Shown: positions 1-3,159 of the stretch, piece by piece
Layout of the letters: each line of letters starts with the position of its first letter
How positions within the stretch are numbered: the stretch's first letter is position 1
Virus record (IMG/VR): IMGVR_UViG_3300004806_000078
Location: 1-27,267 of that record
Source: a virus
Length of the DNA: 27,267 bases
Direction: 5' to 3' (one strand)
Made by a program: the position numbers and the translations under genes
Notes under the pieces: generated by a model
Database searches by the model: none
What the model saw: only the letters and a program-made list of their open reading frames with translations
Told to the model about the DNA's origin: nothing

Positions 1-118
1 GGGTTTATTACAATGCCCCGCCATTGCAGACGGCAATCATAATGAACCTGCTTGGTACGATCCAGAAACTGCTATGGCAGAGAAAAAAGCCCGTGCCGCA
101 CTGAAGGAGGGTGAGTGA
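1..118 (+). CDS. 5'-truncated small ORF (copy B' of the cassette array)
   Basis: The reading frame is open from base 2 and ends at the TGA at 116-118, giving about 38 visible C-terminal residues. They match the C-terminus of the complete ORF at 342-575 except at three positions, so this is the end of a second copy of that gene whose start lies outside the window. The ending ALKEGE contains the Shine-Dalgarno sequence of the next ORF, and its stop overlaps the next start as TGATG. No domain is recognised; by analogy with the full copy the missing part should be a short coiled coil. Function unknown. Confidence 0.75.
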   Translation, partial: GLLQCPAIADGNHNEPAWYDPETAMAEKKARAALKEGE

Positions 119-342
119 TGTCTCATAAAAACGAAACAACATTTGAATGGATGAACACTCAGAAAGATTGGCATCCTGATGAAGATTTATATACCGTTGT
201 TTGTTTAAAAAATGGTCAATCTGAATGTTGCTTGACGGTAGACTTTAATACAGCATGGGATTATGCGGAAAGAAATAAAGATACCCTTCTTTATTTTTAC
301 AAAATGTTTGCGGAACCAAAAGAACTGAAGGAGGGTGAGTGA
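118..342 (+). CDS. small hypothetical protein, copy A of a duplicated pair
   Basis: A 74-residue polar, aromatic-rich protein starting MSHKNETTFEWMNTQKDW; no domain is recognised. I chose the ATG at 118 because AAGGAGG lies 7 bases upstream and the start overlaps the previous stop as TGATG; the GTG three bases earlier lacks this spacing. A paralogue at 823-1047 differs at 11 of 74 positions. The central stretch (VDFNTAWDYAERNKDTLLYF) could be a small alpha/beta fold. It is translationally coupled to its neighbours, and its C-terminal KEGE is also the next gene's ribosome-binding site. Confidence 0.8.
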   Translation: MSHKNETTFEWMNTQKDWHPDEDLYTVVCLKNGQSECCLTVDFNTAWDYAERNKDTLLYFYKMFAEPKELKEGE

Positions 343-575
343 TGGATATTATTGAACGATTGCAAAAATTAGTTGGCGTTTACATTGGCGATGCTGACAT
401 TGATGATGAGTTGCTGGACGCCAAAGCCGAGATTGAACGGCTGCGGGAAGCGTTGCGTGATTTATTGCAATGCCCTGCTATTGCTGACGGCAATCATAAT
501 GAACCTGCTTGGTATGAGCCAGAAACTGCTATGGCAGAGAAAAAAGCTCGTGCCGCACTGAAGAAGGGTGAGTGA
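342..575 (+). CDS. small coiled-coil hypothetical protein, copy B
   Basis: A 77-residue protein starting MDIIERLQKLVGVYIGDAD with a helical EIERLREALRDLL segment at about residues 32-46 that is probably a short coiled coil. The C-terminal half is the same sequence as the truncated copy at 1-118. The N-terminus and the EIERLRE segment recur in the diverged ORF at 2207-2461, so the window holds three members of this family. EIERLRE-type helices are common in small phage proteins of unknown role. The start overlaps the preceding stop (TGATG), with GGAGG upstream inside the end of copy A. Confidence 0.8.
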   Translation: MDIIERLQKLVGVYIGDADIDDELLDAKAEIERLREALRDLLQCPAIADGNHNEPAWYEPETAMAEKKARAALKKGE

Positions 576-823
576 TGAAAACTGATTATGAAAAATTACA
601 AATGCGGATTAAGTTTATAAAAGACGACATTCGCAAAATTTGCAGTTCTGCTCACTGGACAAGCGAACGGTTAAAAGCTGCGGATGGTAACGTGCCACAG
701 TATTTCATAAACCAACACGGAATCACAGCAGAAGCGATTAATGAAGCGTATTTTGTTGGGAGACAGGCTGGGCGGTTGGATATGGCAAAAGATATTATTG
801 GGGTGATTGGGGAGGGTGAGTGA
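575..823 (+). CDS. small hypothetical protein (cassette C)
   Basis: An 82-residue protein starting MKTDYEKLQMRIKFIKDD, mainly helical and charged, without a recognised domain. It has no second copy in the window, although copies of its neighbours lie next to each other without it at 1-342. It was therefore either inserted in this unit of the array or lost from the other. The start overlaps the previous stop (TGATG); the ribosome-binding site is the slightly diverged AAGAAGG within the end of copy B. It ends IGEGE and supplies a GGGGAGG site for the next gene. Confidence 0.75.
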   Translation: MKTDYEKLQMRIKFIKDDIRKICSSAHWTSERLKAADGNVPQYFINQHGITAEAINEAYFVGRQAGRLDMAKDIIGVIGEGE

Positions 824-1047
824 TGGATCATAAAAACGAAACAACATTTGAATGGATGAACACTCAGAAAGATTGGCGTTCTGATGAGGATTTATATACC
901 GTTATGTGTTTAAAAAACGGTCAAGGTGAATGTTGCGTGACGAAAGATTTTAATACAGCATGGGATTATGCGGAAAAAAATAAAGATACACTTCTTTATT
1001 TTCATAAAATTTTTGCGGAACCAAAAGCACTGAAGGAGGGTGAGTGA
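823..1047 (+). CDS. small hypothetical protein, copy A' of a duplicated pair
   Basis: Second copy of the ORF at 118-342: 74 residues, no gaps, 11 substitutions, starting MDHKNETTFEWMNTQKDWRS. Both frames are intact and the changes are largely conservative, which suggests both copies are or were recently under selection. Start chosen at the TGATG overlap with GGAGG upstream. The C-terminal ALKEGE again encodes the next ribosome-binding site. Function unknown. Confidence 0.8.
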   Translation: MDHKNETTFEWMNTQKDWRSDEDLYTVMCLKNGQGECCVTKDFNTAWDYAEKNKDTLLYFHKIFAEPKALKEGE

Positions 1048-1271
1048 TGGAAGACTGGACGTTAGACAAATGGCTAGAAGAACTTGATGATTACGCTAAG
1101 AAAGACTGGTATTTTGAAATTAGCGGTTACGATGCAGGTCTTCTTCGGGATCAAATCAACCACCTGCGAGAAGAAAACGCCCGTCAAAGGCAAGAGATTA
1201 TGCTTCTTAATTCAATGATACAAACAGAGCATGAAATTATCCGTGTAGCTGCACTGAAAAAGGTTGAGTAA
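1047..1271 (+). CDS. small coiled-coil hypothetical protein, last cassette (D)
   Basis: A 74-residue acidic and helical protein starting MEDWTLDKWLEELDDYAKKDW. Residues about 35-55 (LLRDQINHLREENARQRQEI) look like a coiled coil. It closes the cassette array: its start has the standard TGATG junction, but its own end (AALKKVE then TAA) carries only a decayed version of the junction and is followed by an intergenic gap. No domain is recognised. Confidence 0.75.
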   Translation: MEDWTLDKWLEELDDYAKKDWYFEISGYDAGLLRDQINHLREENARQRQEIMLLNSMIQTEHEIIRVAALKKVE

Positions 1272-1315
1272 TTACATAATATCACTTAGCGCCACTTTCT
1301 GCATATGAGTAACCG

Positions 1316-1321
1316 TATAAT
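1316..1321 (+). promoter_or_regulatory. candidate -10 element upstream of the 1340 gene
   Basis: A perfect TATAAT lies in the gap 1272-1339, 18 bases before the start codon at 1340. No good TTGACA-like element lies 16-18 bases upstream, so this is a weak call. It fits the end of the cassette array and a fresh transcription start. Confidence 0.3.
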
Positions 1322-1339
1322 ATTAGTTAAGGAGATAAA

Positions 1340-1537
1340 ATGTTAATTCAGTTAGAACCTACAATCCCGCTCGAGACACCCAAGGGCAAAGCCAAAGCGC
1401 ACTTCCTGATCGACTACGGGCAAGAGCACCACCTGCTATGGGTGTGCTTCCAAGACGATACGGGCGAGTGCTGGACGTGGCCGAACCCGCAGGTCAAGCT
1501 GCAGGAGAATGTCTCGATGATGCAGGTGAGGAAATAA
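1340..1537 (+). CDS. small conserved hypothetical phage protein
   Basis: A 65-residue protein starting MLIQLEPTIPLETPKGKAKA and continuing with a segment (HFLIDYGQEHHLLWVCFQDD) rich in aromatics and beta-prone residues. I recall very similar short proteins from alphaproteobacterial genomes and phages, annotated as hypothetical; that is memory, not a search. The start is well supported by AAGGAG 5 bases upstream. Its TAA shares its last base with the ATG of the next gene, so the two are translationally coupled. Probably a small beta-sheet protein; function unknown. Confidence 0.8.
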   Translation: MLIQLEPTIPLETPKGKAKAHFLIDYGQEHHLLWVCFQDDTGECWTWPNPQVKLQENVSMMQVRK

Positions 1538-1749
1538 TGTCAGCAGTGGGCATGAAGTGCGAATCGTGCGGAGGTCATTCCCGGGTGTATTCCACGCGGA
1601 CGAGCGCCATACCGAACGGGATATATCGGCGTAGGGAATGCAGCCTGTGCCGCCACCGATGGACGACGGTTGAGGTTTCGGGCGATGCGTTAAAATACAT
1701 CATGGGTGTACAAAAAAGTGTTTGCAATCCAAATTTAAACGTGCCATAA
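1537..1749 (+). CDS. NrdR-like zinc-ribbon protein
   Basis: A 70-residue protein with a four-cysteine zinc ribbon: C8-x2-C11 and C35-x2-C38, followed by RHRWTTVE, with RRR just before the second pair. This pattern (CxxC, arginine run, CxxC, R-[FW]-TT-x-E) is the N-terminal zinc ribbon of NrdR, the repressor of ribonucleotide reductase genes. The ATP-cone that follows it in NrdR (about 150 residues in total) is absent, so this is a stand-alone zinc ribbon. A nucleic-acid-binding role is likely and the target unknown. The start overlaps the previous stop as TAATG with GAGG upstream; an alternative start is ATG 1552. Confidence 0.75.
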   Translation: MSAVGMKCESCGGHSRVYSTRTSAIPNGIYRRRECSLCRHRWTTVEVSGDALKYIMGVQKSVCNPNLNVP

Positions 1750-1758
1750 AACTTGGGC

Positions 1759-1775
1759 AGGGCGATGGTCGCCCT
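1759..1775 (+). other. intergenic RNA hairpin
   Basis: AGGGCGA (1759-1765) and TCGCCCT (1769-1775) form a perfect 7-bp stem with a 3-base loop between two genes of the same operon. There is no T-tract after it, so it is not a classical terminator; it may be an mRNA processing or stability element. Confidence 0.4.
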
Positions 1776-1792
1776 CTAGATGGAGATTGCAG

Positions 1793-1966
1793 ATGACACC
1801 TTTTGAAGCAGTATTACTTATCGAAGCAGGCGAGGATGACGCGGAACTCACCCTCGAAGCATGGCAAATCCTGATTGACAGCAACCTCGTGTGGCAGCTG
1901 CAGGGTTACTACGGTCGTACGGCATCCGCACTGATTGCGGAAGGCCTTTGTGTTTCAGCTAATTAA
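1793..1966 (+). CDS. small conserved hypothetical phage protein, 57 aa
   Basis: The ATG at 1793 opens a 57-codon frame starting MTPFEAVLLIEAGEDDAELT, followed by LEAWQILIDSNLVWQLQGYY and a helical end. It resembles a widespread small phage protein with the pattern EAWQxLxDxxLVWxLQGxYGR; the family is unnamed as far as I know. GGAG sits 7 bases upstream of the start. The stop codon is part of TAAGGAG, the ribosome-binding site of the next gene. Confidence 0.75.
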   Translation: MTPFEAVLLIEAGEDDAELTLEAWQILIDSNLVWQLQGYYGRTASALIAEGLCVSAN

Positions 1967-1976
1967 GGAGATGATA

Positions 1977-2198
1977 ATGTTTTACCTAGTACCACGCGGC
2001 CGTACGGTCGATTACTTTGTCCACACCACCGAATCATTCATTGAGGCGCGCTTTTACGTTAACTTTATGAAGAAGACCCGCGACGAGGAATATGACGTCA
2101 TTGAGATGCGGCGTTACCCGTTCGACAACGTCAACGAGCCAACCGCCCTGCACGATGGACCGCCAGAAGTGGCCGTCGACGAATCTTTGTATATGTGA
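1977..2198 (+). CDS. small hypothetical protein
   Basis: A 73-residue protein starting MFYLVPRGRTVDYFVHTTES with alternating beta and helical character and an acidic C-terminus. No domain is recognised. I chose ATG 1977 because AAGGAG (1965-1970) is 6 bases upstream; the in-frame ATG at 1971 directly abuts that site and is unlikely to be used. It follows the 57-residue gene by 10 bases and is followed closely by the 2207 gene, so it belongs to the same operon. Confidence 0.7.
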   Translation: MFYLVPRGRTVDYFVHTTESFIEARFYVNFMKKTRDEEYDVIEMRRYPFDNVNEPTALHDGPPEVAVDESLYM

Positions 2199-2206
2199 GG
2201 CGCAAA

Positions 2207-2461
2207 ATGGATATTGTCGAAAAACTACGTTTAGTTGATGGCGAATTTTGGTGGAAACCATTGGGGCATGGCCTAGACACTGATGATCTTTGCAGAGAAG
2301 CCGCCAATGAGATTGAGCGGCTGCGGGAAGAACGTCATGCATTGCGGGAGGTTTTGCAATTTTATGCGTCATTTGCGACGAATACTTCGCCATACAAAGA
2401 TATGGTCGATTATCTTGTTGATAACGGTAAACTTGCAGCACTTGCATTGAATGGGGATTAA
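2207..2461 (+). CDS. small coiled-coil protein, diverged paralogue of cassette B
   Basis: An 84-residue protein starting MDIVEKLRLVDGEFWWKPLG and containing NEIERLREERHALREVLQFY at about residues 34-53, a clear amphipathic helix. The N-terminus and EIERLRE segment match the ORF at 342-575, so it belongs to the same family with a different C-terminal half. The start is the ATG with GAGG 6 bases upstream, the GAGG being just after the previous stop. Function unknown; such helices could mediate dimerisation. Confidence 0.75.
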   Translation: MDIVEKLRLVDGEFWWKPLGHGLDTDDLCREAANEIERLREERHALREVLQFYASFATNTSPYKDMVDYLVDNGKLAALALNGD

Positions 2462-2463
2462 TA

Positions 2464-2697
2464 ATGAACGAACAGCAAGAACTGGCCAAAGACATGCTGC
2501 GCGAAATCATGAGGCTCGAGGCGGTGTTCCACGAGGCTAATGCCCATGTGCCGCAAGCCGATAGGGATTTAGCTATAATTTCCGCTATGGCTTTTGAAAC
2601 CATCAATTACGCCATGACAATTATGAAGATGCCGGCCGACCAGCTGGTTGAGAAGATCGCTGCATCAATGGCCATCCATGAGATAGTAAATAAATGA
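2464..2697 (+). CDS. small helical hypothetical protein
   Basis: A 77-residue, mostly helical protein starting MNEQQELAKDMLREIMRLEA. No domain is recognised. The start lies 2 bases after the previous stop with GGGGA upstream. The stop TGA overlaps the next start (ATGA at 2694-2697), so translation of the last two genes of this operon is coupled. Confidence 0.7.
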   Translation: MNEQQELAKDMLREIMRLEAVFHEANAHVPQADRDLAIISAMAFETINYAMTIMKMPADQLVEKIAASMAIHEIVNK

Positions 2698-2819
2698 GAC
2701 AGCCTACCCTACTCGAGCTTGTTCAGGCCTACGCCGCGGCCGTTCGCAATGGCAACAAAAAGCGCGCGGCCAAGCTAGACAAGATTATTAAGAAAGCCTA
2801 TCCTTCAGCTCCTCCTTAA
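2694..2819 (+). CDS. very small basic protein, 41 aa, last gene before the terminator
   Basis: The ATG at 2694 overlaps the previous stop as ATGA and opens a 41-codon frame starting MRQPTLLELVQAYAAAVRNG, followed by a run rich in Lys and Arg. It has an acidic/hydrophobic first helix and a strongly basic second one. It ends 11 bases before a strong terminator, which supports it as the last gene of the operon. Function unknown. Confidence 0.6.
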   Translation: MRQPTLLELVQAYAAAVRNGNKKRAAKLDKIIKKAYPSAPP

Positions 2820-2830
2820 TACATGACTTG

Positions 2831-2860
2831 GGGCTGCCTTCGGGCGGCCCTATTTTTTTT
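2831..2860 (+). terminator. strong rho-independent terminator with UUCG loop
   Basis: GGGCTGCC (2831-2838) pairs with GGCGGCCC (2843-2850), one G-U pair included, closed by a TTCG tetraloop and followed at once by TA and eight T. It ends the rightward operon of small genes. Confidence 0.92.
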
Positions 2861-2887
2861 ACAATGAATGCATTTTTTTGTTTGCAT

Positions 2888-2893
2888 TATAAT
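2888..2893 (+). promoter_or_regulatory. candidate -10 element upstream of the 2953 gene
   Basis: A perfect TATAAT lies in the 2861-2952 gap between the terminator and the next gene, where a new promoter is expected. The -35 region is not convincing. Downstream, CGGGGC and GCCTCG (about 2918-2933) could form a short leader hairpin before the ribosome-binding site. Confidence 0.35.
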
Positions 2894-2952
2894 TTAGATA
2901 TGCTACATATGAGTCGTCGGGGCGGTTTGCCTCGCTAGATAGGAGATTTTAA

Positions 2953-3159
2953 ATGTACGCTAAATCATATGAAACTGTAAACGGTCACGATATTATCATT
3001 TATCATGTGTTCCCACCCGTCCCTATTCGTAATTGGGATTATCAAGCAGGGTTTGCCAAAGACTATGGCGAAGAAGATGCCATATACGGCGAAGGCGCGA
3101 CCATTGCAGAAGCTATTCAAGATTTGTTTGATAAAAAGGAATTTCACGAAGATGTTTGA
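2953..3159 (+). CDS. small hypothetical protein
   Basis: A 68-residue acidic protein starting MYAKSYETVNGHDIIIYHVF, with beta-prone N-terminal strands, a PPVPIRNWDYQAGF turn and a C-terminal helix (GATIAEAIQDLFD). The strand-strand-helix order vaguely recalls HicB-like folds, but no HicA partner is adjacent and I do not claim that identity. TAGGAG lies 8 bases upstream of the ATG. Its stop overlaps the next gene's coding region by 8 bases. Confidence 0.75.
   Translation: MYAKSYETVNGHDIIIYHVFPPVPIRNWDYQAGFAKDYGEEDAIYGEGATIAEAIQDLFDKKEFHEDV

Follow-up and report, generated by a model that had tools for sequence, protein, structure and literature searches.

Results

A row of small genes joined by one repeated junction

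The window, by which we mean the whole stretch of DNA analysed here, is the entire IMG/VR record IMGVR_UViG_3300004806_000078 (27,267 bases), and its start is a contig end. It belongs to a tailed phage, with matches to a terminase (phrog_38) and an SU10-type portal. At its left end, on the + strand, lie six small ORFs, here called cassettes, whose coordinates are counted from the inner ATG: B' (1-118), the 3' part of a family F0 gene that is cut by the contig end and closes with ...AALKEGE and the stop; A (118-342; 74 residues from its ATG, family F4); B (342-575; 77 residues, family F0, MDIIERLQ...EIERLREAL...ARAALKKGE); C (575-823; 82 residues, family F1), the mobile cassette that was tested best; A' (823-1047; 74 residues); and D (1047-1271; 74 residues), which ends in ...ALKKVE and a TAA stop without a coupled gene downstream. 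They are joined by a 17-base junction, J1 = AAGGAGGGTGAGTGATG, that occurs on the same strand in exact copies at 104-120, 328-344 and 1033-1049 and in near copies at 561-577 (one mismatch) and 809-825 (two mismatches, its left half resembling the GGGGAGG of a further junction, J2). No other copy exists in the whole window outside 104-1049, the chance expectation being 0.04 on average (100 shuffles). At each copy two ORFs are joined via TGATG, and the junction comprises the last codons, a Shine-Dalgarno (SD) sequence, the stop and the overlapping ATG start. These three exact and two near copies, the order B'-A-B-C-A'-D with A and B duplicated, and the composition of the junction had all been described in an earlier note on this DNA and are confirmed here. 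A and A' are 85% identical in amino acids and 91% in nucleotides, B' and B are 93% identical over the 117 nucleotides leading up to the junction, and the C-terminal half of D recurs on different N-terminal halves in the contigs L133 and L143.

The earlier note also held that the window start cuts the array, which may thus be longer. The truncation itself is real: the contig L063, which comes from the same phage (100% identity in the core), extends 278 bases further left and completes more of B', which there starts after J2 (GGGGAGGTGCAGTGGTGATG, one mismatch). No further J1 was seen in those 278 bases, however, so that a leftward continuation of the J1 series did not materialize within them. 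The window's array is found identically in two further contigs from other assemblies.

Within cassette B, at 431-445 on the + strand, lies a second type of homology breakpoint, the intragenic "LRE" joint (GATTGAACGGCTGCG), which encodes EIERLRE and at which homology breaks within genes. An F0-like protein (MDIVEKLR...EIERLREER) is also encoded outside the array, at 2207-2461, without J1 and with an LRE-like site at 2311. On the right the array is bounded by an element with TATAAT-like repeats (1272-1340, + strand), found with 11 of 67 arrays (matches listed plus window), several of them from the same phage; in L093 this element is located within an array. A sigma-70 scan of 1272-1340 gave no + strand match and two overlapping matches on the - strand.

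Recurrence of J1 in other phage contigs

Searching related phages for the 17-mer, as the earlier note had proposed, revealed J1 arrays in other phage contigs. An exact scan of viral contigs returned at least 119 stretches, each of which was chosen for one exact copy somewhere; among the 119 matches listed, 66 hold two or more copies with up to three mismatches, 30 hold two or more exact copies, 64 have two copies (up to three mismatches) on one strand no more than 1,500 bases apart, and the largest array listed counts 11. Across the 313 junctions of these matches and the window, TGA overlaps ATG in 301 and the upstream frame is open for at least 20 codons in 275, and in 126 of 186 consecutive intervals (matches listed) the gene begun in one junction has its end exactly in the following one. 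Base frequencies within the 17-mer are inflated by the search itself, but stay high beyond it too; the bases just upstream of it, for instance, are T in 78% and G in 76% of 223 distinct open contexts among the matches listed. Unrelated families occur between copies of the same junction, and the many-membered family F0 makes up 152 of 309 genes. Several contigs, the window included, end inside an array. Junctions share one orientation within arrays, with opposite-strand copies additionally present in L016 and L121; the latter, with four copies one way and two the other, is the only clear case of opposed groups.

J2 precedes J1 copies in 32 of the 37 loci that contain it, mostly following a small gene that ends in INGEVQW or VNGEVQW when it leads the array. 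It is internal in four, always after a C copy ending in IGEVQW, and in the remaining one no J1 lies within 1.5 kb. The usual end of C, GGGGAGGGTGAGTGATG (window copy at 809), is J2-like on the left and J1-like on the right, and since it has GGGGAGG in common with J2, we infer that C copies could cross over at J1 and J2 alike.

Short arrays whose KEG(E)-type junctions differ in sequence from J1 were noticed on the reverse strands of L199, L225 and L287. L225 resembles a diverged J1 array, and L199 and L287 apparently use dialects of their own; a composed 23-mer consensus for L287, which fits none of its own copies exactly, had no exact match in viral_contigs.

Other searches were unproductive. 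The J1 extended to 20 bases had no exact match in genome_contigs, where 236 stretches also matched one of two peptide patterns for relatives of cassette C and none was confirmed. Among named phages there was no DNA match for window positions 1-25000 (near) or 1-3000 (distant) and no protein match for cassettes C and B, the nearest public phage record to the window's TerL being 56% identical and of environmental source. An Rfam search gave no match. Neither the 17-mer nor its 14-base part occurs literally in the literature searched, and no title or abstract there describes J1, most subscription journals being outside its scope.

Cassette turnover between nearly constant junctions

To avoid a choice based on junctions, loci for C and for family F3, first met in arrays, were found by protein. 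Among 22 C loci, 20 of the 21 read (L146 left out) start with J1 (at most three mismatches), and the ends are J1 (same tolerance) or J2 except in L132 (five mismatches from J1), L145 (incomplete at its end) and L144. L144 is a 63% identical C relative in another phage contig with J1 on neither side. Over the 20 complete loci, the window and two contigs of the same phage included, C is 86-100% identical in nucleotides, and its neighbours fall into 12 clusters upstream and 14 downstream, which combine in 15 ways, a count that leaves out L144 (63%, no J1) and the partial L145 and L146. F3 behaves similarly: all 14 loci have J1 where the gene ends (zero to four mismatches), 12 of the 13 with enough sequence also have it at the start, J2 taking its place in the other, and on each side the neighbours in 13 loci could be clustered, giving nine clusters upstream and 11 downstream (too little sequence left L294 without an upstream and L305 without a downstream cluster). 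The six relatives of A' are less uniform; J1 stands at the start in two same-phage contigs and L150, J2 in two, neither in L152, and two of the six end without a coupled start.

Genes thus differ while junctions persist, in protein-found loci too, which is the pattern for which the earlier note had suggested a check. What it had named as a refutation, namely constant gene content with junction similarity limited to the duplicated copies, is not met, given that C occurs in 20 loci with 12 and 14 neighbour clusters.

Pairwise comparisons are consistent with this. Between the window and G001 (array L026), C is 99.3% identical over 277 bases, the match opening six bases ahead of one junction and closing 22 bases beyond the start of the following junction, with both its ends in junctions; other common stretches are 73-85% identical, apart from an 85-base one at 95% and a further C-like one at 92.4%. 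G006 has C at 89% nucleotide identity, yet its TerL is only 32% identical to the window's over part of its length. On either side of their arrays, which are scrambled, G002 and G004 match for several kilobases at 94-97% identity. The array is not their sole difference, as roughly 3-6, 9-23 and 32-36 kb of G002 have no match in G004, perhaps because G004 is incomplete or because the two have truly diverged.

The ratio of mean dN to mean dS is 0.04 for C (36 pairs) and 0.20 for F3 (28 pairs); both are under purifying selection and are therefore real proteins. The five complete cassettes gave nothing convincing against PHROGs and Pfam (best E 0.036), and the AlphaFold model of C is poor (mean pLDDT 56).

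Homology breaks at the joints

Breakpoints were counted in 48 arrays with at least three junctions among the matches listed, pairs sharing more than 60% of the array being left out. Left ends of common segments lie at J1 in 242 of 471 cases, against 52 (maximum 84) when junctions were shifted at random, and right ends in 203 of 467, against 53 (maximum 76). J2 accounts for 16 of 229 left ends (null 4) and 53 of 264 right ends (null 3), and the LRE joint for 123 left ends out of the 213 then left over (null 21) and 127 right ends out of 211 (null 20). Together the three joints account for 381 of 471 left and 383 of 467 right ends (about 81%), in windows that cover 21% of bases (left definition). 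The J2 and LRE motifs were chosen post hoc from unexplained breakpoints, which leaves J1 as the one result untouched by hindsight. Moreover, ends at J1 are also gene boundaries, and these alone would not separate homology from selection.

Gene order points in the same direction. We compared 67 stretches with at least two junctions (matches listed plus window, near-clones left out). When a small gene was common at 88% identity or more, the next gene was common as well in 64 of 436 comparisons across J1 or J2 versus 387 of 535 at boundaries of other kinds that follow small genes outside the arrays. At 80% the figures are 66 of 550 versus 502 of 731, at 93% they are 54 of 204 versus 244 of 326, and a looser version gives 88 of 878 across junctions versus 511 of 788 across flanking boundaries between two small genes. 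Continuity is low at array boundaries without a recognised junction, too (6 of 50 at 88% or more; 18 of 84 in the looser version), which implies that the whole array is labile and that turnover is not strictly tied to J1. These comparisons are not independent of one another, and F0 paralogues inflate the discontinuity.

Signs that J1 may be more than a translation signal

AAGGAGG, the core of J1, encodes KEG and is at the same time an ideal SD sequence. In 29 of 186 intervals (matches listed), though, the upstream gene stops between -5 and +3 bases from the junction start, so that most of the junction is not coding sequence of that gene; the junction is still present there with at most three mismatches, and exactly in 13 intervals, whose gene starts are all distinct although many of them lie in related contigs. 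In the codon use of carriers GGC (39%) exceeds GGT (35%) and GAA (65%) exceeds GAG (35%). A complete scan for a synonymous variant (GGC GAR) returned 101 stretches, none with two exact copies, compared with 30 of the 119 J1 matches listed; with up to three mismatches the contrast is weaker, 36 of 101 variant stretches versus 66 of 119 J1 matches listed having two or more copies. Sites lying 60-600 bases from another number 60 of 153 for the variant and 243 of 311 for J1 (matches listed).

Recombination proteins in carriers

We hand-picked 36 carrier records, many of them fragments, of which 33 were searched for Erf, integrase and resolvase and 16 for RecT. The window's TerL matches 25 of the 36 at 30-100% identity. 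A Sak4-like protein, recognised by the phrog_124 profile, is strong in seven of 36 carriers, and ten reach E 0.001; the same profile also responds in 13 of 14 control genomes, so that the Sak4 assignment holds at the level of the family. For the Sak4-like protein of G002, phrog_124 is the sole PHROG match, and the protein passes the AAA_24 cut-off. Erf lies above cut-off in ten of 33 carriers, in records other than the Sak4-like ones, and in G006, at a distance of about 1 kb from the array, it adjoins a RecE-like exonuclease. One or the other protein is found in 17 of the 33 records searched for both; 16 have neither at a strong level, including G003, G011, G014 and G030, each longer than 30 kb. 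There was no RecT in 16 carrier records, no tyrosine integrase in 33 (many of them fragments) or in the window, and a serine resolvase in one of 33; the window, itself a fragment, matched neither Sak4-like proteins nor Erf. Without an array-free comparison, the presence of annealases is a matter of compatibility, not association. In G030, the record of L122, a phrog_2 (terminase) match spans two TGA and one TAG codons, which could reflect a frameshift or another code.

Discussion

We consider it quite probable, on the strength of sequence comparison alone, that the window opens with an operon-like array of interchangeable small-gene cassettes of tailed phages that is reshuffled by homologous recombination at translation-coupling junctions. 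In the aligned contigs, cassettes start in one and the same junction, where most of them also finish, and the genes between change singly and in order as the junctions stay nearly identical. The arrays, their shuffling and the breakpoints at the joints can be read directly from these alignments; homologous crossover at the joints remains an inference, none having been observed, and it is in this form that the modular small-gene exchange suggested by the earlier note gains support.

According to this model, junctions would serve as short identity tracts at which cassettes of co-infecting phages are joined by phage recombination proteins, probably of the Sak4-like or Erf type, a role that we infer. 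Unequal crossover at the junctions would duplicate cassettes. Each crossover would copy a complete translation signal, with the consequence that the newcomer could be translated at once, and every exchange would spread the junction further. The J1 identity tract is short, close to the minimum usually cited for homologous recombination. Rad52-like phage recombinases, Erf included, are reported to act on short or diverged homology (PMC3945230), and diverged DNA is said to recombine with the help of annealing proteins (PMC5499656). The former source also locates mosaics among temperate and defective phages and not between virulent and temperate ones. What the phages gain is likewise inferred: with low certainty, the cassettes may be early accessory proteins that take over the host or counter its defences and are under selection for turnover.

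The most serious objection is that the likeness of the junctions could be purely functional, an SD sequence and a stop/start overlap having been selected at each site while joins arise illegitimately and only those at gene ends survive. This would explain why AAGGAGG serves both as KEG and as ideal SD, and it predicts breakpoints at gene ends just as crossover does. Since KEG(E)-type junctions with other sequences occur in other phages (L199, L225, L287), part of J1 is indeed a common translational solution. Nevertheless we judge this account unlikely to suffice, because identity extends beyond the SD sequence despite the modest use of GGT and GAG, because the synonymous variant never occurs in two exact copies within a stretch (an argument that weakens when three mismatches are allowed), and because breakpoints at the LRE joint lie inside genes and not at their ends. 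The SD core would then be the common solution and the longer identity particular to this junction lineage, so far as sequences can tell.

Three further possibilities carry much less weight. Local tandem duplication, in which unequal crossover within one lineage amplifies and deletes paralogues, fits the A/A' and B/B' pairs, the many members of F0 and the second C-like stretch of G001 (92.4%), and it likely contributes; as the sole process, which we hold to be very improbable, it is contradicted by near-identical cassettes in phages with diverged cores, as well as by the unrelated families found between copies of the same junction. Site-specific recombination at J1 in the manner of integrons is scarcely credible even though one-gene cassettes, a common joint and a single orientation within arrays would suit it, for a tyrosine recombinase is lacking in all 33 carriers (many fragments) and in the window, a serine resolvase occurs only once, the five window junctions have no conserved fold (z -0.91 to 1.24), and two further joint sequences, J2 and LRE, behave alike. 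That repeats produced assembly chimeras would account for contigs ending in arrays, the window among them, but hardly deserves belief when the window's array is identical in two further contigs of other assemblies and other arrays recur (samples may be common to them), and when the joints are shorter than usual sequencing read lengths.

Returning to recombination at translation-coupling junctions, a bolder version can be entertained only tentatively. It would see in the arrays an integrase-free phage system of cassette exchange, in which the junction is translation signal and crossover tract in one and spreads itself by being copied, phages with very different cores pool their small genes, and the intragenic joint recombines protein halves. 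Other phage groups, such as those of L199 and L287, may have junction dialects of their own.

Comparison with known systems

That short conserved boundary sequences could be points of homologous crossover was proposed earlier by Susskind and Botstein (1978) and, for HK620, by Clark et al. (2001), both as cited in the accessible part of PMC3029335. J1 arrays do resemble the lambdoid case, which likewise has short conserved sequences at the boundaries of mosaic modules, and they do display a conserved short sequence at the boundaries of exchanged unrelated genes. They differ in that J1 repeats up to 11 times per stretch among the matches listed with a single small gene as the unit, in that J1 is also coding sequence, SD, stop and start, and in the absence of a tyrosine integrase from the 33 carrier records. 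The start-associated sequences (SAS) of Cluster K mycobacteriophages are, in the part of PMC3203893 available, 13-base repeats with AGGAG just upstream of the starts of non-structural genes of different families, and like J1 they may contain the stop of the upstream gene; the same portion places them through half a genome and reports no cassette exchange at them. The SAS sequence GGGATAGGAGCCC had no match within two mismatches in the window. PeSL elements of T4-type phages (Arbiol 2010; Comeau 2014) are repeated intergenic elements said to mediate gene shuffling, going by their citation in the portion of PMC4503421 at hand. A PeSL consists of a promoter and a stem-loop, whereas the window junctions are without unusual fold (the z-scores given above) and without a sigma-70-like site, promoters of the host not being known; the sigma-70 scan of window positions 1-1400 gave four matches on both strands versus 3.3 expected, two + strand matches lying within ORFs. 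Integrons are rows of single-gene cassettes with common joints. Unlike them, J1 arrays have J1 within coding sequence and coupled translation, and no tyrosine integrase was found in the 33 carriers (many fragments) or the window. As to an attC-like site, segments of 61 bases around the five window junctions, the only length folded, gave no unusual structure.

Nothing found makes J1 arrays an integron or a PeSL system, and by the features tested they are not the Cluster K SAS; they are an unusually clear case of boundary-sequence mosaicism that behaves in the manner of a cassette exchange system. The earlier note had supposed their type to be without a name, which does not hold for the boundary-sequence idea as such, already proposed by others, and does hold to the extent that their density, their single-gene grain, a joint that is coding sequence, SD, stop and start together, and a second, intragenic joint are unusual. 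Whether phage mosaics originate from boundary homology or from illegitimate joining followed by selection is an old question, and since the boundary sequence here is visible, repeated and synonymously recodable, it becomes directly testable. The arrays moreover mark a pool of small proteins apparently traded by phages, a good place to seek host-takeover or counter-defence functions, and they provide one of the few legible examples of how mosaic phage genomes arise.
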